DNA of 64,000 bases from Methanogenium organophilum. Its GTDB lineage: Archaea > Halobacteriota > Methanomicrobia > Methanomicrobiales > Methanomicrobiaceae. Numbering within the stretch: position 1 is the first letter of the stretch; each line of letters starts with the position of its first letter. Location of the stretch: positions 124,001 through 188,000 of the forward strand of contig NZ_CP113361.1 of NCBI RefSeq assembly GCF_026684035.1, written 5' to 3'. Under the pieces are notes generated by a model. It did not search any database and had not been told where the DNA came from. It saw nothing but the letters and a program-made list of their open reading frames with translations. The translations under genes were made by a program, and so were the position numbers. This document shows, one piece after another, positions 28,275-50,662 of this stretch.

Positions 28275-28865
28275 TCATTCGGATTTTGAGAAGACTGAAA
28301 AGATCGCCCAGAATACCGTAGATACAATCGCCAACTCGATGTAAAAGCCAAGAGTCACACCGATGGTGAAGATCAGATCATACCCTGCCTGCCCTACGAA
28401 ACCAAGTGCTGTTGCAACTGCGTCGAAGATATGTCCCAGTCCGGGAAGATATTCCGCGAAAAGGGGCGGCAGAGCAGCATCTACCGTACGTTCTGGATTT
28501 ATGAGCAGTGCAGCCAGGAACGGGATCTGGAACAGCGACCCGGTTAAGATAGAAAGAGATTTCATTCTCCCGGAAAGTGCCGGTGTGAAGAATAACCGGG
28601 TGAAGCAGATGTAGGGCATGACTACGGCCATGGCCGATATGGTCACCAGTACGGCAAGGAAGGTGTATGTCAACAACGGATCCGGTGGCGGAGCATGGGA
28701 AAGCTCCGTCCCCCCAATTCTCAGAAGAATTGCAAGAGATGTGATAAGCACGTAAACGGGAATGCGGCTCTTTTCTCTGAGCAATGTGAACAGTTTATCG
28801 AGAATAAACGGGTATGCCAGTACGAATATGATTGCAGCAATCAATCCAAAAACAATATTTGACAT
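28275..28865 (-). CDS. repeated membrane protein, copy 1
   Basis: A 196-residue integral membrane protein with about five hydrophobic segments: residues 3-20, 36-52, 66-86, 105-122 and 165-188. Conserved loops include GGTELSHAPPPDPLLTYTFL and the amphipathic AALPPLFAEYLPGLGHIFDA. It resembles small permease-like or Yip1-like proteins, but I cannot name a family. Near-identical copies lie at 36548, 39866 and (truncated) 32626. It is expressed from a partial copy of the repeated promoter at 28953-29003. Function unknown. Confidence 0.8.
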   Translation of the reverse strand: MSNIVFGLIAAIIFVLAYPFILDKLFTLLREKSRIPVYVLITSLAILLRIGGTELSHAPPPDPLLTYTFLAVLVTISAMAVVMPYICFTRLFFTPALSGRMKSLSILTGSLFQIPFLAALLINPERTVDAALPPLFAEYLPGLGHIFDAVATALGFVGQAGYDLIFTIGVTLGFYIELAIVSTVFWAIFSVFSKSE

Positions 28866-28952: not shown

Positions 28953-29003
28953 TTAACCGTTTATGGTCCAATCGTTTACACGTTAACAGATGTCTGGAAA
29001 ACT
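28953..29003 (-). promoter_or_regulatory. partial repeated promoter (operator and TATA)
   Basis: Holds the conserved half-operator CCAATCGTTTACAC (28968-28981) and the TATA-like TTTATTAA on its downstream side, but not the two-hairpin leader. It precedes the membrane-protein copy 1 and is also the left end of a duplication shared with 44766-45746. Confidence 0.55.
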
Positions 29004-32230: not shown

Positions 32231-32625
32231 AATAAATCGGCCATATTCCACTTCCAAATATTCCAGTAACAGCAGGAAGACGTTGAGAATTTCGCCATGA
32301 CACTGGTTATTTTGGCGAGGGTTATTTCATAAGCAACTGCGCAGGATCGGAATAGAATAATAGGTACATTGTAACCCCTGCAGGGGAAACGGATAGATAA
32401 GGAGGGATTTTGCCTCTCAGTACATATTACACGATTACCAAGGCCGATACTGACCTGAATTCTAAGTGCCTTTCAGCCAGGACAGATGACCTGACAAAAT
32501 GAAATACATAATTCCATTTCCGTCATTCATCCGGCCGGTGTGCAATTCCATGCACATCGTCTTTCACTTCAAAGCATTTTTACTGCTCCGACAGATCCAA
32601 AAACCAGATTAATTTGATTCCGGAA
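32231..32625 (+). pseudogene. decayed small secreted protein gene
   Basis: From about 32275 to 32505 the plus strand matches the gene at 49323: signal-peptide remnant, then ACATTGTAACCCCTGCAGGG and CTCAGTACATATTACACGAT. Frameshifts and a stop soon after GETDR inactivate it. From about 32510 the 3' flank of the repeated membrane gene follows. Confidence 0.65.
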
Positions 32626-32905
32626 TCATTCATATTTTGAGAAGACTGAAAAGATCGCCCAGAATACCGTAGAAACAATCACCACCTCGAGGTAAAAGCC
32701 GAGAGTCACACCGATAGTGAAGATCAGATCATATCCTGCCTGCCCTACGATGCCGAGTGCTGTTGCAACTGCATCGAAGATATGTCCCAGTCCGGGAAGA
32801 TATTCCGTGAAACGGGGTGGCAGAGCAGCATCTACCGTACGCTCCGGATTTATGAGCAGTGCAGCCATGAGCGGAATCTGGAAGAACGACCCGGTTAAGA
32901 TGGAA
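32626..32905 (-). pseudogene. repeated membrane protein, copy 4, 5'-truncated
   Basis: Matches codons about 104-196 of the copies at 28275, 36548 and 39866 but identity stops sharply at 32905 (after LTGSFFQIPLMAALL read upstream). The N-terminal half, start codon and promoter are absent. More diverged than the other copies (LEVVIVSTVFWAIFSVFSKY). Confidence 0.8.
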
Positions 32906-36547: not shown

Positions 36548-37138
36548 TCATTCAGATTTTGAGAAGACTGAAAATACTGCCCAGAATACCGTAGATACAA
36601 TCGCCAACTCGATGTAAAAGCCAAGAGTCACACCGATGGTGAAGATCAGATCATACCCTGCCTGCCCTACGAAACCAAGTGCTGTTGCAACTGCGTCGAA
36701 GATATGTCCCAGTCCGGGAAGATATTCCGCAAAAAGGGGCGGCAGAGCAGCATCTACCGTACGCTCTGGATTTATGAGCAGTGCAGCCAGGAACGGGATC
36801 TGGAACAGCGACCCGGTTAAGATAGAAAGAGTTTTCATTCTCCCGGAAAGTGCCGGTGTGAAGAATAGCCGGGTGAAGCAGATGTAGGGCATGACAACGG
36901 CCAAGGCCGATATGGTCACCAGTACGGCAAGGAAGGTGTATGTTAACAACGGATCCGGTGGCGGAGCATGGGAAAGCTCCGTCCCCCCAATATACAGAAG
37001 TATTGCAAGAGATGTGATGAGTACGTAAACAGGAATGCGGCTCTTTTCTTTAAGCAATGTGAACAGTTTATCGAGAATAAACGGGTATGCCAGTACGAAT
37101 ATGATTGCGGCAATCAATCCAAAAACAATATTTGACAT
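36548..37138 (-). CDS. repeated membrane protein, copy 2
   Basis: 196 residues, almost identical to copies at 28275 and 39866 (differences such as LLYIGG for LLRIGG and ISALAV for ISAMAV). The same five or so membrane segments. It begins after GAGAGGAAAAA, a good SD. Upstream lies a truncated two-segment membrane fragment (37147-37372) and the operon start at 38080, so it is the distal gene of a unit controlled by the full operator at 38148-38185. Function unknown. Confidence 0.8.
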   Translation of the reverse strand: MSNIVFGLIAAIIFVLAYPFILDKLFTLLKEKSRIPVYVLITSLAILLYIGGTELSHAPPPDPLLTYTFLAVLVTISALAVVMPYICFTRLFFTPALSGRMKTLSILTGSLFQIPFLAALLINPERTVDAALPPLFAEYLPGLGHIFDAVATALGFVGQAGYDLIFTIGVTLGFYIELAIVSTVFWAVFSVFSKSE

Positions 37139-38147: not shown

Positions 38148-38185
38148 CCAATCATTTACACGTTGTATGATGTGTAAACAATCGG
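38148..38185. promoter_or_regulatory. full inverted-repeat operator, locus A
   Basis: Left arm CCAATCATTTACAC (38148-38161), 10-base spacer, right arm GTGTAAACAATCGG (38172-38185): 11 of 14 positions symmetric. It lies between divergent units, with TATA elements on both sides (minus 38130-38138; plus TTAATAAAT at about 38197). A dimeric winged-helix protein, such as the one encoded at 38605, would fit. Confidence 0.65.
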
Positions 38186-38209
38186 CCCACAAGATGTTAA
38201 TAAATCGAG

Positions 38210-38560
38210 GTCGTAACCCCTGCAGGTGATACAAATAGACCTGGAGGAATTGTTCCTCTCAGTACATATTACACAATAATCCAGGGCGAGACTGACTGGT
38301 ATTCAACATATGTATCATCCGGGACAGATGATCCTGATGTTGATTTAAACTGGGGGTCTTTGCAGAACTCACTTACGATTACAATCATTGCACCGGATGC
38401 GACACTCGGCCCGTATTATGATGCCGATGACGGCGCAACAGATGGAAGAATCCACCTTCTCATTACCAAACCAGGAGGACTGGCTTCGGGAACATGGAAC
38501 TCCAGAGTATACGGATATAATGTGCAGGGTACGGAAGATTATACCTATTCCTGGAATTAA
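38210..38560 (+). pseudogene. small secreted protein gene lacking start and signal peptide
   Basis: The mature part of the protein encoded at 49323 is preserved in one open frame (VVTPAGDTNRPGGIVPLSTY; LNWGSLQNSLTITIIAPDAT; LGPYYDADDGATDGRIHLLI; ending YTYSWN), but the start codon and signal peptide are deleted; sequence before 38210 is promoter. The regulator gene follows 42 bases on. It is probably not made, unless from an unusual start. Confidence 0.7.
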
Positions 38561-38604: not shown

Positions 38605-39453
38605 ATGGCAGAAATACGGCCACTCACTCTCACATTCATCCTTATCCTCTTGGTTGTATACCTCATCGGTCCGGCAACCGCAACACCCGGAGGGTATATT
38701 GTCAAACCGGCTCCCGAGAATGACCCGGATGAAGAGAGACACGAATTCACCCCCATCTCCTTTTGGGAGTTAACTCCCCGTGCAATGCTCATCGACATTG
38801 CACTCTGTATTTCTCCCGTTCTGATATTCCCGGTCGAATTTCTGTTTGCAGTGAAATTATGGATTTATCTGGGATATCGAAAGGTTGCGAAATACAACGT
38901 GCTCAATAGCACTGTTCGTTCAGAAATGTTTGAATGCATCTGCAATAACCCGGGAATTACATTTTCTGCCCTTGCACGTGAATGCAACATCGGGAAGGGA
39001 ACGCAACAATATCACCTCAAATTGTTAATGAGGGAACATAAAATAATCTCAGTTAAGAAAAAGGGACAAACCGGATTTTTTGAGAATAATAGTAAATATG
39101 GGGAATTACAGCAGACCATGCTGCTGCAGCTCAGGAGTGATACGGTGCGGCAGATCTATGAAATCCTGATCCTTCATCCCAATGTCTCACGTAAAGAGGT
39201 CGCCCGTTACCTTGGCATATCCGGATCTTCCGTGACATGGCAAATGGAACGGCTCTGTGCTGAAGGCACTGTTTCCGCCACGAAATCCGGGAAATACACC
39301 TGTTACCTCCTCAATCCAAAAGCAAAAGAAATTCTTCGGGATTACCTGCCCGACCATCCGGTTGCGGGCGCGACGGGTCAGGCACAAAAGGAATCATCTG
39401 AGCTGCGGTCTGCGGTTCCGGTTACATCGGGTGAAATTCCCTCATCAGATTAA
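38605..39453 (+). CDS. membrane-tethered regulator with two winged-helix domains, copy A
   Basis: 282 residues (GTG 38602 is an alternative start). An N-terminal hydrophobic segment or signal (residues 7-25) is followed by a short outside loop of about 35 residues beginning GGYIVKPAPENDPDEERHEF. A second membrane segment (about 60-92) leads to two cytoplasmic HTH domains: ICNNPGITFSALARECNIGK with GTQQYHLKLL, and LILHPNVSRKEVARYLGISG with SSVTWQMERL. It matches the archaeal two-HTH regulator type (COG3398-like). Expected to sense something outside and bind DNA; the adjacent inverted repeat is the likely target. 79-90% like the copy at 49814 by eye. Confidence 0.85.
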   Translation: MAEIRPLTLTFILILLVVYLIGPATATPGGYIVKPAPENDPDEERHEFTPISFWELTPRAMLIDIALCISPVLIFPVEFLFAVKLWIYLGYRKVAKYNVLNSTVRSEMFECICNNPGITFSALARECNIGKGTQQYHLKLLMREHKIISVKKKGQTGFFENNSKYGELQQTMLLQLRSDTVRQIYEILILHPNVSRKEVARYLGISGSSVTWQMERLCAEGTVSATKSGKYTCYLLNPKAKEILRDYLPDHPVAGATGQAQKESSELRSAVPVTSGEIPSSD

Positions 39454-39865: not shown

Positions 39866-40456
39866 TTATTCAGATTTTGAGAAGAGCGAAAAGATCGCCC
39901 AGAATATCGTAGACACAATCGCCACCTCGATGTAGAAGCCGAGAGTCACACCGACAGTGAAGATCAGATCATACCCTGCCTGCCCTACGAAACCAAGTGC
40001 TGTTGCAACTGCATCGAAGATATGTCCCAGTCCGGGAAGATATTCCGCGAAAAGGGGCGGCAGAGCAGCATCTACCGTACGCTCTGGATTTATGAGCAGT
40101 GCAGCCAGGAACGGGATCTGGAACAGCGACCCGGTTAAGATAGAAAGAGTTTTCATTCTCCCGGAAAGTGCCGGTGTGAAGAATAGCCGGGTGAAGCAGA
40201 TGTAGGGCATGACAACGGCCAAGGCCGATATGGTCACCAGTACGGCAAGGAAGGTGTATGTTAACAACGGATCCGGTGGCGGAGCATGGGAAAGCTCCGT
40301 CCCCCCAATATACAGAAGTATTGCAAGAGATGTGATGAGTACGTAAACAGGAATGCGGCTCTTTTCTTTAAGCAATGTGAACAGTTTATCGAGAATAAAC
40401 GGGTATGCCAGTACGAATATGATTGCAGCAATCAATCCAAAAACAATATATGACAT
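39866..40456 (-). CDS. repeated membrane protein, copy 3
   Basis: 196 residues starting MSYIVFGLIAAIIFVLAYPF at ATG 40456, preceded by GAGGTGGAAAAA. Nearly identical to copy 2 through most of its length, with small differences near the C-terminus (EVAIVSTIFWAIFSLFSKSE). It has the same five or so membrane segments. Its upstream region keeps only part of the repeated promoter (TTTACAC-like TTTACACATCC at about 40548). Function unknown. Confidence 0.8.
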   Translation of the reverse strand: MSYIVFGLIAAIIFVLAYPFILDKLFTLLKEKSRIPVYVLITSLAILLYIGGTELSHAPPPDPLLTYTFLAVLVTISALAVVMPYICFTRLFFTPALSGRMKTLSILTGSLFQIPFLAALLINPERTVDAALPPLFAEYLPGLGHIFDAVATALGFVGQAGYDLIFTVGVTLGFYIEVAIVSTIFWAIFSLFSKSE

Positions 40457-40791
40457 TTTTTCCACCTCAGAAGAAATTCGGAATAGTCCCAGGGATGAAA
40501 TACATCCTATCGGTCGGCATATCAGACATTTGAATTCGCTTCATTAATCGTTTACACATCCATCAGGCACATCCAAAGGAGACCATGCCGATCGCGATCC
40601 ATTCAAGCAGCAATATTCATCACTGATATCCTGACCAATATGAAAGATCAAATACTGATATGCTGTTCCACCTGATGACACTTCCATATTTCCGGGGTGA
40701 TTGTTTCCGTTAACTCCGTTATAGTGATAATTAGGGTTTCAATAAAGCCAAATTAATATACCATTTCCGGTAACTAGTTGAAATACCGAAA
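40457..40791. other. mosaic spacer with fragment of the gene at 51815
   Basis: Bases about 40619-40733 are almost identical to 52316-52432 inside the secreted-protein gene at 51815-52825 (for example gatgacacttccatatttcc), with both ends cut. Bases 40528-40556 hold a broken promoter copy. There is no intact gene. Confidence 0.65.
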
Positions 40792-44112: not shown

Positions 44113-44589
44113 CTATTCCACAACGATTGTCAAATTAAAGGTCGCTTCCTCACCTGAAATAAATTCAGGACGTCGATGAATTGCTGATATTGTCTGTACC
44201 CCCGTATTAACTGTGGTGACATTCCACTCACGCACACCTCTTATTCCAATGAATGTGGGTGAAGGATTTCCATCTTCATCATACCAGATAACACCCCCAT
44301 CTGATATACGGAGGCCAGGACTTGCAGTCATGTACCATTGATATCCGGTTCTTCGGTTTTCATTCAGACGGATTGTGAAAGACTCATGCAATTTTACGCA
44401 TATCGTAGAATTATTCTGCATTTCATCAACAGTCATATTCCCTCCGAAACCTGAACTCTCCAAACATTCAATTGATGTAACGTTTTCTTCCGGATACTGC
44501 TGGTCCAAACCAAGGCACCCAACTGCCAGAGTAACCATCATCACTGTCAGGAGCACAGAAAGTTCACGCATTCCTTTCTTCAGTTTCAT
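44113..44589 (-). CDS. chagasin-family (I42) protease inhibitor lipoprotein
   Basis: 158 residues. Signal MKLKKGMRELSVLLTVMMVT leads to a lipobox-like LAVGCLG. The mature part fits the I42 inhibitor fold: SFTIRLNENRRTGYQWYM (equivalent of the NPTTGY loop), central GVREWNV region, and ISAIHRRPEF (equivalent of the RPW loop). Known members inhibit papain-like cysteine proteases. It uses the same promoter cassette and signal-peptide type as the secreted proteases. The target here is unknown. Confidence 0.8.
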   Translation of the reverse strand: MKLKKGMRELSVLLTVMMVTLAVGCLGLDQQYPEENVTSIECLESSGFGGNMTVDEMQNNSTICVKLHESFTIRLNENRRTGYQWYMTASPGLRISDGGVIWYDEDGNPSPTFIGIRGVREWNVTTVNTGVQTISAIHRRPEFISGEEATFNLTIVVE

Positions 44590-47732: not shown

Positions 47733-49049
47733 TCAACAATAAGAGGCAACAACACCCTTCGTTTCAGAAATTCTTCGCTCATTGTCATGATTGGCATCAC
47801 CATAATATCCATCATCTGCCGAAAATTCTAACCAATTACTTTTCATGAAATAACCCCACATAACAGTCTGCCAATAGCTATAATGCTCATAAAACCTATA
47901 TGGTCGGTTGTATGTCTCTGTCTGTCCAGTTGCTGGATCATGATCCGCATCAAAAACATGCCCAATTTCGTGTAGAGTTACAACCGCCCTGTCCTTGTGC
48001 ACAGCGTCGTATGTAGAGGGATCATCTGCCATTTGTGTCCATGCATGCCTGTAGAGAGTATTGTGATCATACCCCCCTGAAGATCCAACTCCATTCGATG
48101 TAGAGTCAAAACCGCCTAAATACAACCCAAAATCTGCAGATTTCGAATTTAGATACGATTTTGGATAATATGCAGCAAATGTTGAGAGCGGAGAACCTTG
48201 AATCTGTGGATCGTCGGAGAGCAGTTGTGCCTTCGAAGTATCATAAATTGGTACAAGGTTCACTCCGATAGTATTCATTTCATAGTTACAGTCTGTGATG
48301 ATATTTGCCGCTTTTACCTGCCAGTCAGGCTCATCTGTCATCCACTTACTATCAGTAGCAACAAGAACTCTGACGGTGACAGTTGCATCTGAATAAGCCT
48401 GTTCTTCCAGTATCTTTTTCAATGCGTATTCTGTTTCGTTGATTACGTGAGTTGAAGGGAGATAGGAATCAATGAGGATCGTGTCGCCTTCAGGGACAAC
48501 GTCCTTTGATGAGTACACATATTGCAAGAACGCATTTGTGGATTTCGGATCTTTCATCGATGTGCTTTCAATGTAATATTCAGTTTTGTTAATAGCGATT
48601 CTGCTCAGCAGAACTCTGTCATCAAACGTAAGGATCACCTCGCTATCCTCAACACCGATGAGGCTTCCAGTGAAGGAATGGATCCCAATAGCAAGAGCTT
48701 CTGTATCGGTCAATATTTCTTGTATATCCATCACATAGGGCTGCCCTTCAACATATACTGTCAATGTATCACCACTAAGTAGAATTTCTCGAATTCTTTG
48801 TATGTCAAAGACTACTAAATCATAGTTCTTTATCGAAGAAGGGATTTTGGCAATCGTCCTCTCATCGGTGATTCTTATCTCTGTCATGTCTCCAAAGTGG
48901 ACAAGAGCCTTCTTGCCAACGGATTCACTGTGCATCTGTTCATTTCCAATTTCAGAGTCTAAAGCACTCACCGCCGGCACCACAATAACACTCACAAACA
49001 GCAACGCCAACAGCACAGAAAGTGCTCGCATTTCAATTTTTGGTTTCAT
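47733..49049 (-). CDS. secreted zinc metalloprotease (HEIGH type) with prodomain
   Basis: 438 residues. Shared signal peptide MKPKIEMRALSVLLALLFVS plus VIVVPAVSA, prodomain about residues 45-200, catalytic domain with VRVLVATDSKWMTDEPDWQV and the zinc site VVTLHEIGHVFDADHDPATG. A Met-turn candidate QTVMWGYF follows. It is related to the protease at 41191 throughout, and its prodomain to 46435. ATG 49049; no small partner gene follows directly. Secreted, probably made as an inactive proform. Confidence 0.85.
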   Translation of the reverse strand: MKPKIEMRALSVLLALLFVSVIVVPAVSALDSEIGNEQMHSESVGKKALVHFGDMTEIRITDERTIAKIPSSIKNYDLVVFDIQRIREILLSGDTLTVYVEGQPYVMDIQEILTDTEALAIGIHSFTGSLIGVEDSEVILTFDDRVLLSRIAINKTEYYIESTSMKDPKSTNAFLQYVYSSKDVVPEGDTILIDSYLPSTHVINETEYALKKILEEQAYSDATVTVRVLVATDSKWMTDEPDWQVKAANIITDCNYEMNTIGVNLVPIYDTSKAQLLSDDPQIQGSPLSTFAAYYPKSYLNSKSADFGLYLGGFDSTSNGVGSSGGYDHNTLYRHAWTQMADDPSTYDAVHKDRAVVTLHEIGHVFDADHDPATGQTETYNRPYRFYEHYSYWQTVMWGYFMKSNWLEFSADDGYYGDANHDNERRISETKGVVASYC

Positions 49050-49235
49050 ACTTTTTTCTCCATTTTTCATATCTCAGGAGGCAAAACAGCGAAACTTCCA
49101 AGTAATGGTAAGGCCAACACGGCCCTGCCTCCGGGCACGCGGGGGGCTCAACCATTCCTGATCTGTTCGGCGAGCCCCGTGCAACACCTTTTTGATGCTG
49201 TGTGCATGACTTTTGACGTTTATATATTAGCTTTT
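49050..49235 (-). promoter_or_regulatory. repeated promoter/leader cassette 8
   Basis: A TATA box of best quality in the set (TATATAAA on the minus strand at about 49219-49227), then a leader with stem-1 arms GGGGCTCA and CGAGCCCC (a G-U pair in the transcript) and stem 2 GGAGGCA with TGCCTCC. Drives the protease at 49049 from the full operator of locus B. Confidence 0.75.
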
Positions 49236-49241
49236 TATGGC

Positions 49242-49279
49242 CCAATCATTTACGCATCGTACAACGTGTAAATGATTGT
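49242..49279. promoter_or_regulatory. full inverted-repeat operator, locus B
   Basis: Left arm CCAATCATTTACGC (49242-49255), 10-base spacer, right arm GTGTAAATGATTGT (49266-49279): 12 of 14 positions symmetric, the same arm length and spacing as locus A. It lies between the protease gene and the small secreted protein/regulator genes, so it can control both. Confidence 0.7.
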
Positions 49280-49322
49280 ACCCTAAAAAGGATATTCAAC
49301 TTCCAAATTTTCCTGTGAGACC

Positions 49323-49769
49323 ATGAAAACTATGAGAATTGCCGCTGTGACACTGATTGTTGCGGCGCTTGTTATATCGGCAGCCGCTGCGCAGGAAATA
49401 GAACAGAATAATGGATACATAGTAACCCCTGCAGGTGATACAGATAAATTCGGAGGAATTTTGCCCCTCAGTACATATTACACGATTACCCAGGGCGAGA
49501 CCGACCGGTATTCAACATATGTATCATTCGGGACAAATGACCTTGGCGTTGATTTAAACTGGGGGTCTGTGCAGAACTCACTTGCGCTTACAATCATTGC
49601 ACCGGATGCGACACTCGGCCCGTATTATGATGCCGATGACGGCATAACAGATGGAAGAGTTCACCTTCTCATTGCCAAATCAGGAGGGCTGGCTGCGGGA
49701 ACATGGAACTCCAATATATATGGCCAGAATGTGCAGGGGACGGAATATTATACATTTTCCTGGAATTAA
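49323..49769 (+). CDS. small secreted protein (intact member of repeated family)
   Basis: 148 residues: signal peptide MKTMRIAAVTLIVAALVISA then AAAQEIEQNNGYIVTPAGDT, mature domain of about 123 residues, beta-rich (ILPLSTYYTITQGETDRYST; LALTIIAPDATLGPYYDADD; ending YYTFSWN), resembling a small jelly-roll/peptidase-C-terminal-like domain. It precedes the regulator gene by 44 bases and is probably co-transcribed. At least five decayed copies face other cassettes. It could be the external signal or a co-factor of the regulator. Confidence 0.8.
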   Translation: MKTMRIAAVTLIVAALVISAAAAQEIEQNNGYIVTPAGDTDKFGGILPLSTYYTITQGETDRYSTYVSFGTNDLGVDLNWGSVQNSLALTIIAPDATLGPYYDADDGITDGRVHLLIAKSGGLAAGTWNSNIYGQNVQGTEYYTFSWN

Positions 49770-49813
49770 GGTAAAACACAACCATAATCATCCATGAAGA
49801 TGAGAGGAAAATG

Positions 49814-50662
49814 ATGGCAGTAAAACGGCCACTCACTCTCACATTTATCCTTATCCTCTTCATTGTATACCTCATCGGTCCGGCAACCGCAGCACCGGGG
49901 GGGTATATTGTCAAACCGGCCCCCGAGACGGACCCGGATGAAGAGGTACACGAATTTACACCCATCTCCTTTTGGGAACTATCTCCCCGTGCAATGCTCA
50001 TCGACATTGCAATCTGTATTTCCCCCGCTCTGATATTCCCGGTTGAACTTCTGTTTGCGGTTAAATTATGGATATATCTGGGATATCGAAAGGTTGCGAA
50101 ATACAACGTGCTCGATAACAATATCCGTTCAGAAATGTTTGAACACATCTGCAATAATCCGGGCATTACATTTTCTGCTCTTGCCCGTGAATGCAATATC
50201 GGGAAGGGAACGCAACAATATCACCTCAAAGTGCTAAAAAGGGAACATAAAATAGTCTCAGTTAAGAAAAAGGGTCAAACCGGATTTTTTGAGAATAATG
50301 AAAAATATGAGGAATTGCAGCAGACCATACTGATGCAGCTCAGGAGTGATACGGTGCGCCATATCTATGAAATCCTTATTCGTCATCCCAACATATCACG
50401 CAAAGAGCTCTCCCGGTGCCTTGGCCGATCCGGATCTGCCGTGACATGGCAAATGGATCGGCTCTGTGCTGAAGGCACCGTTTCCGCCACGAAATCCGGG
50501 AAATACACCCGTTACCTGCTCAATCCCAAAGCAAAAGAAATTCTCCGGGATTACCTGCCTGACTATCCGGCTGCGGATGCGACGGGTCAGGCACAAAAGG
50601 AATCATCTGAGCTGCGGTCTGCGGTTCTGGTTACATCGGGTGAAATCCCCTCATCAGATTAA
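49814..50662 (+). CDS. membrane-tethered regulator with two winged-helix domains, copy B
   Basis: 282 residues beginning MAVKRPLTLTFILILFIVYL. Outside loop GGYIVKPAPETDPDEEVHEF, second membrane segment SPALIFPVELLFAVKLWIYL, then HTH 1 (ICNNPGITFSALARECNIGK) and HTH 2 (LIRHPNISRKELSRCLGRSG with SAVTWQMDRL). Same organisation as 38605. HTH 2 recognition residues differ slightly (SGSAVTW for SGSSVTW; RCLGRS for RYLGIS), so DNA preference may have shifted. SD GATGAGAGGAAA. Confidence 0.86.
   Translation: MAVKRPLTLTFILILFIVYLIGPATAAPGGYIVKPAPETDPDEEVHEFTPISFWELSPRAMLIDIAICISPALIFPVELLFAVKLWIYLGYRKVAKYNVLDNNIRSEMFEHICNNPGITFSALARECNIGKGTQQYHLKVLKREHKIVSVKKKGQTGFFENNEKYEELQQTILMQLRSDTVRHIYEILIRHPNISRKELSRCLGRSGSAVTWQMDRLCAEGTVSATKSGKYTRYLLNPKAKEILRDYLPDYPAADATGQAQKESSELRSAVLVTSGEIPSSD

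Follow-up and report, generated by a model that had tools for sequence, protein, structure and literature searches.

A secreted protein and a membrane-bound winged-helix regulator as a candidate ligand-receptor module in methane-producing archaea

In Methanogenium organophilum an operator-like element lies in front of two adjacent genes, one for a small secreted protein (SEC) and one for a regulator with a membrane segment (REG), and the locus raises the question of whether REG reads SEC and controls the genes that carry the element. We examined this in the window, that is, the whole stretch of 64,000 nucleotides that was analysed, and in other genomes. The original prediction had placed the operator between a secreted protease gene and the two-gene unit, and this was borne out. 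On one side, the minus-strand gene at 47733-49070 encodes a secreted M12 metallopeptidase (PF13688, E=9e-9, with the motif HEIGHVFDADH), and on the other, SEC (49323-49769) and REG (49811-50662) follow on the plus strand. SEC is 148 aa long including a signal peptide, and its export, predicted from the sequence, agrees with the earlier description of it as secreted.

The element itself had been described as an inverted repeat. Both arms were found where they had been placed (49242-49255 and 49266-49279), each one mismatch from CCAATCNTTTACAC and pairing with the other at 12 of 14 positions. Functionally it is not an inverted repeat only, and in this respect the description had to be changed to directional half-sites. 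Site search and promoter alignment showed that the arm facing the protease promoter reads GCGTAAATGATTGG on the minus strand, next to a BRE/TATA-like element, CATAAAAAGCTAATATATAAA (49219-49239, minus strand), whose position is conserved across the minus-strand promoters, while the arm facing the SEC-REG promoter reads GTGTAAATGATTGT on the plus strand, next to a BRE/TATA-like element at 49284-49299 (plus strand) recognised by promoter layout. Alignment of about 11 minus-strand promoters revealed a directional order of GTGTAAAYGATTGG, a 2-nt gap, CATAAA and a TATA-like box, with a fixed distance from half-site to box. At 49.2 kb the inverted repeat is made up of two directional half-sites separated by 10 nt, one for each of the divergent promoters; pairs with the same 10-nt spacing were also found at L087, L088, L089 and L091. 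Nearly all of the remaining genes of the island have a single half-site in front, and minus-strand half-sites precede further island genes at 28968, 29919, 32191, 36113, 40544, 42755, 44782, 45732 and 53015 (28968-53028 overall). Sites with up to two mismatches to CCAATCNTTTACAC numbered 14 in the window, compared with 1.45 expected, and exact GTGTAAANGATTG sites occurred nine times in the whole 2.65-Mb genome, all nine within window positions 28968-53028.

The same arrangement had been said to recur at 38.1-39.5 kb, which did not hold for the pair as a whole. Paired half-sites are present there (38148-38185), followed on the plus strand by an intact regulator 87% identical to REG (38605-39453). 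The SEC copy between them (38204-38560, plus strand) is a remnant that has neither start codon nor signal peptide, with TAA TAA immediately preceding IEVVTPAGDT. Because decayed SEC pieces also sit opposite other promoters of the island, the comparison suggests repeated duplication of the divergent unit, with SEC-REG lost from most copies.

Other features of the island were recorded alongside. The promoter and 5′ leader at 49096-49236 (minus strand; repeat family D2, alignment A3) is common to eight island genes; the eight minus-strand copies, each about 140 nt, lie within window positions 29772-53009, and most are 89-93% identical. The mature proteins encoded behind them differ, and many of their signal peptides are related (MRALSVLLALLLVSVIVVPAVSA). 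A structured regulatory RNA was considered as an account of the conserved leader and was rejected, as neither an Rfam match nor covariation support was found. The same promoter element precedes a gene for a chagasin-family peptidase inhibitor (44113-44589, PF09394, E=3e-14), which shares the island with two secreted M12 metallopeptidases. In addition, four copies of another sequence, 90-98% identical (28275-28865, about 32600-32899, 36548-37138 and 39866-40465), belong to the tandem block duplications; at least three of them encode a 196-aa membrane protein, for which Pfam gave no match.

Domain matches (PF24266 and PF13412) and a structural model indicated that REG consists of a signal-peptide-like helix, an outside tail, a transmembrane helix and two cytoplasmic winged helix-turn-helix (wHTH) domains. 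The putative outside segment, residues 27-58 (GGYIVKPAPETD...PISFWELSPR; 49889-49984, plus strand), appears disordered on its own by pLDDT and motif analysis: residues 27-50 have a pLDDT of about 50 and confidence is low through residue 53. The transmembrane helix is long, and both wHTH domains, placed by domain matches and the model at residues 104-161 and 168-248 (50120-50554, plus strand), are well predicted. REG scored 57 bits against PF24266, the HVO_0163 N-terminal HTH family, where the curated cut-off is 31. Both PF24266 and PF13412 (HTH_24) were present in all 36 REG members tested, and nine further homologous matches were found in the same genome. The two family models cover the DNA-binding part alone, and the outside tail and the SEC partner lie beyond them; a sequence search of solved structures with REG returned generic wHTH proteins only. 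In REG a single chain holds the DNA-binding domain, the membrane segment and the part outside the cell, as in membrane-bound one-component regulators. The topology first proposed for it survived in part. The two wHTH domains, some 30 outside residues and the transmembrane helix stand, while two membrane segments joined by a loop are doubtful, since a cleavage-like sequence (ATA/AP) closes the first hydrophobic segment and REG may instead cross the membrane once, with its N-terminus free on the outside. Apparent fusions of REG to sensor domains at L115, L126, L122 and L141 were discarded, as the long frames proved to be overlapping frames in GC-rich DNA.

The SEC model is a beta-sandwich with a pLDDT of 87.5, and Foldseek matched it to subtilase C-terminal jelly-roll and GOLD domains. 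Its N-terminal strand, GYIVTP (residues 31-36; 49413-49430, plus strand), is common to REG according to the model and local matching; the model places a strand at residues 32-36 (YIVTP) and gives the block 31-40 a pLDDT of 87. The PPC profile (PF04151) matched 11 of 34 members of the SEC family, P0002 itself not being among them, and a sequence search of solved structures with SEC gave no match. By its model SEC appears to have a fold like that of the bacterial PPC and subtilase jelly-roll domains; unlike them it is free-standing, linked to a regulator and equipped with an extra N-terminal strand, and is not a protease appendage.

We then asked how regularly the two genes occur together. In relatives from the same order, 28 of 61 REG genes were preceded on the same strand by SEC at a distance of no more than 250 nt, and REG came next after 16 of 19 SEC genes. 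Outside the order, elsewhere in the phylum, REG followed SEC in all 14 examples examined. The SEC profile matched 113 of the 232 genomes of the class, together with families elsewhere in the phylum. From this gene order the SEC-REG pair is, as judged by sequence comparison, a conserved module. About half of the REG genes have no adjacent SEC, among them one whole regulator group in genus g12; speculatively, these might respond to a SEC encoded elsewhere in the genome. Two near-identical tandem REG paralogues at L105 4056-5888 (genome C1:116-118 kb), about 6 kb before the window, have no SEC directly upstream, and at L135 two divergent REG genes share one locus, one with SEC and the other without.

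The evidence connecting the two proteins comes from a shared motif, GYxVxP, which was found in the outside tail of 62 of 105 REG proteins and in the N-terminus of 44 of 83 mature SEC proteins. It occurred in only one of 150 other signal-peptide ORFs from the same loci, which led us to reject the idea that it serves generally as a tag for export or sorting. The best local match in the window pair is GYIVTPAGDTD in SEC and GYIVKPAPETD in the REG tail, and further matched pairs include IIEEKNGYIVRSGYD/IIETKKGYVVTSGYD (L168) and IIVIPSVD/IIVTPSAD (L102). When tail and SEC segments were aligned in 32 non-redundant pairs, the score was 26.4 within pairs and 22.2 across pairs (p=1e-4), and SEC segments compared with shuffled REG tails in these pairs gave z=12; the within-pair excess was also seen in a hand-checked set of 22 pairs (p=0.00025). 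Signal peptides were not pair-specific (p=0.09, compared with 0.0002 for the segments after them), and identical residues had identical codons at a frequency of 0.45, where 0.41 was expected, and in none of eight cases in the window pair. Since neither signal peptides nor codons share the likeness, recent gene conversion was rejected as its source.

The same figures bear on a second account, in which the REG N-terminus arose as a duplicate of the SEC N-terminus and REG is tuned by other cues. Both proteins begin with a signal peptide and GYxVxP, and gene adjacency makes tandem duplication easy; yet the residues are matched pair by pair while codons and signal peptides are not, and decay would not hold the strand alone in register across separate lineages, so that common ancestry by itself seems to us distinctly improbable. 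A third account takes SEC to be an output, with REG sensing the envelope or some other partner and with SEC and the REG tail docking through their similar strands on a common third surface component. The shared motif could then be a docking tag for that one partner, and it would fit that operator-bearing genes encode mostly secreted proteins and that many REG genes lack a SEC neighbour. However, the motif is nearly confined to the two families among the signal-peptide ORFs compared, likeness specific to each pair would demand a separate third partner for every pair, and REG follows SEC almost always; we regard SEC as a mere output as unlikely. On these comparisons the best reading is that SEC is the cognate ligand of REG, probably engaged by beta-strand exchange. 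A disordered tail of 30 residues would be expected to make a poor small-molecule sensor and a good strand donor. There is precedent for strand addition in GOLD domains, which bind strands of their partners, as in complexes with picornavirus 3A (PMC6695192). The beta-sandwich is similar, although the parallel is an analogy only, as those proteins are intracellular and unrelated to SEC and REG.

To relate the regulator to its putative sites, operators of other modules were compared. Inverted repeats upstream of SEC-REG had a mean score of 9.5, as against 6.3 in 643 background stretches (MWU p=1.6e-10). Repeat scores exceeded the 99th percentile of the background in 18 of 55 upstream regions, and because the other 37 did not, some modules may rely on single half-sites or other elements. 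The arms were up to 22 bp long and differed between modules (for example TTTACGGCCACTGCAGCTACAT at L154 and TGTCCAAATCGTCCAACTG at L178). Arm similarity tracked REG similarity among close relatives only (Mantel rho 0.26, p=0.003); among distant module pairs the co-variation of regulator and operator was not significant.

All five genomes whose REG has a type-A cytoplasmic domain contain at least two exact operator-A sites, and none of 23 others does, a co-occurrence that partly reflects shared ancestry and is not independent, as the five come from two genera and four of them from one genus. Two of the 23, G018 and G020, have one exact operator-A site each. Two chimeric REGs were found in G013: their N-terminal halves are 72-80% identical to type B and 25-27% to type A, and their C-terminal halves 72% to type A and 23-25% to type B. 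As the divergent promoters beside these chimeras still carry operator A, the operator appears tied to the cytoplasmic half of REG. G007, a genome from another genus, has the same half-site in front of both SEC-REG and a further secreted-protein gene about 8 kb away that carries the same signal peptide, which makes a putative two-site regulon of secreted genes. A recognisable signal peptide was present in the products of 22 of 48 divergent genes. At L097, L099, L100, L158 and L161-L164, SEC is longer (about 230-340 aa) and the divergent gene encodes an ABC transporter ATPase, not a secreted protein.

These comparisons also weigh on another account, in which REG does not bind the operator; the element would instead be recognised by some unrelated factor, or would be a strong core-promoter variant carried along as cassettes were duplicated. 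Every exact site of the window's genome does lie in one duplicated island with a common leader, and the half-site always adjoins BRE/TATA. Against this, the sites accompany type-A REG across two genera and follow the cytoplasmic half in the chimeras, and other modules have inverted repeats of other sequence; we consider this account very improbable. The claim that REG reads SEC and controls the operator genes is in our view partly supported, with strong comparative support from gene linkage, the pair-specific motif and the co-occurrence of operator A with type-A REG, chimeras included.

We consider it reasonably probable that SEC and REG form a ligand-receptor module that works by strand docking, acts through half-sites and is divided into separate channels. 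SEC would be exported and fold as a PPC-like beta-sandwich, and REG would be anchored in the membrane, its short unstructured tail exposed outside and its two winged helices in the cytoplasm. SEC would dock on REG through exchange or addition of a strand, with REG's tail replacing SEC's own N-terminal strand; such docking is proposed because the tail and the mature SEC N-terminus carry the same GYxVxP motif. Docking would shift the oligomeric state of REG, and the winged helices would act at the half-sites that immediately precede BRE/TATA. REG would most likely be an activator, since ArnR boxes, located at -43 to -84 (PMC6396743), have a comparable position. It would switch on its own SEC-REG operon along with secreted-protein genes that lie divergent to it or nearby, and variation of strand pairs and operators by module would create separate channels. 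We infer binding, strand exchange, activation, autoregulation and the physiological cue, be it population density, contact or envelope state; the population sensing first proposed fits no better than a contact, envelope or self-sensing role, which fits equally well. More tentatively, such circuits may be insulated protein-ligand and receptor pairs throughout the phylum, in which the tail mimics and replaces a ligand strand, strand and operator change in a matched way, and swaps of receptor halves rewire the connections.

Membrane-bound archaeal one-component regulators are already known from ArnR and ArnR1 of Sulfolobus acidocaldarius, activators of surface-structure genes that likewise use an HTH domain and inverted-repeat boxes upstream of BRE/TATA (PMC6396743). 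ArnR consists of a single HTH at the N-terminus, a HAMP-like and a sensor domain and C-terminal transmembrane helices (two in the ArnR/ArnR1 layout), is phosphorylated by ArnC, and was described without a co-encoded secreted partner (PMC6396743). REG does not share this layout: its topology is opposite (outside tail, transmembrane helix, wHTH, wHTH) and a secreted partner gene accompanies it. What sets REG apart is the order of parts and the secreted partner. In ToxR/ToxS-type systems, too, a wHTH regulator anchored in the membrane shares its operon with the gene of its partner. By description they are set apart from SEC-REG, as the DNA-binding part of REG is C-terminal and its secreted partner is free. 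Among methanogens, FilI/FilR of Methanothrix (Methanosaeta) harundinacea likewise links regulation to an extracellular signal, through carboxyl-AHL small molecules and two-component parts in contrast to a secreted protein and a membrane regulator; filI has been called the sole gene with a demonstrated role in archaeal quorum sensing (PMC12240190). Literature searches, beyond whose reach most subscription papers lay, found no description of the SEC-REG pair.

Collectively, the SEC-REG units, present in many versions in methane-producing archaea, appear to be a family of cell-surface signalling circuits not described before. Gene-level knowledge of archaeal circuits for cell-to-cell or self-sensing is nearly absent. 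If the proposed reading is true, the membrane receptor would be the transcription factor itself, with strand exchange as a possible sensing mechanism, and the module, being two small genes, would be directly expressible and testable and would offer ready-made separate parts for archaeal genetic engineering. In several methanogen families, a single genome would then hold as many as about ten ligand-receptor-operator channels in parallel.
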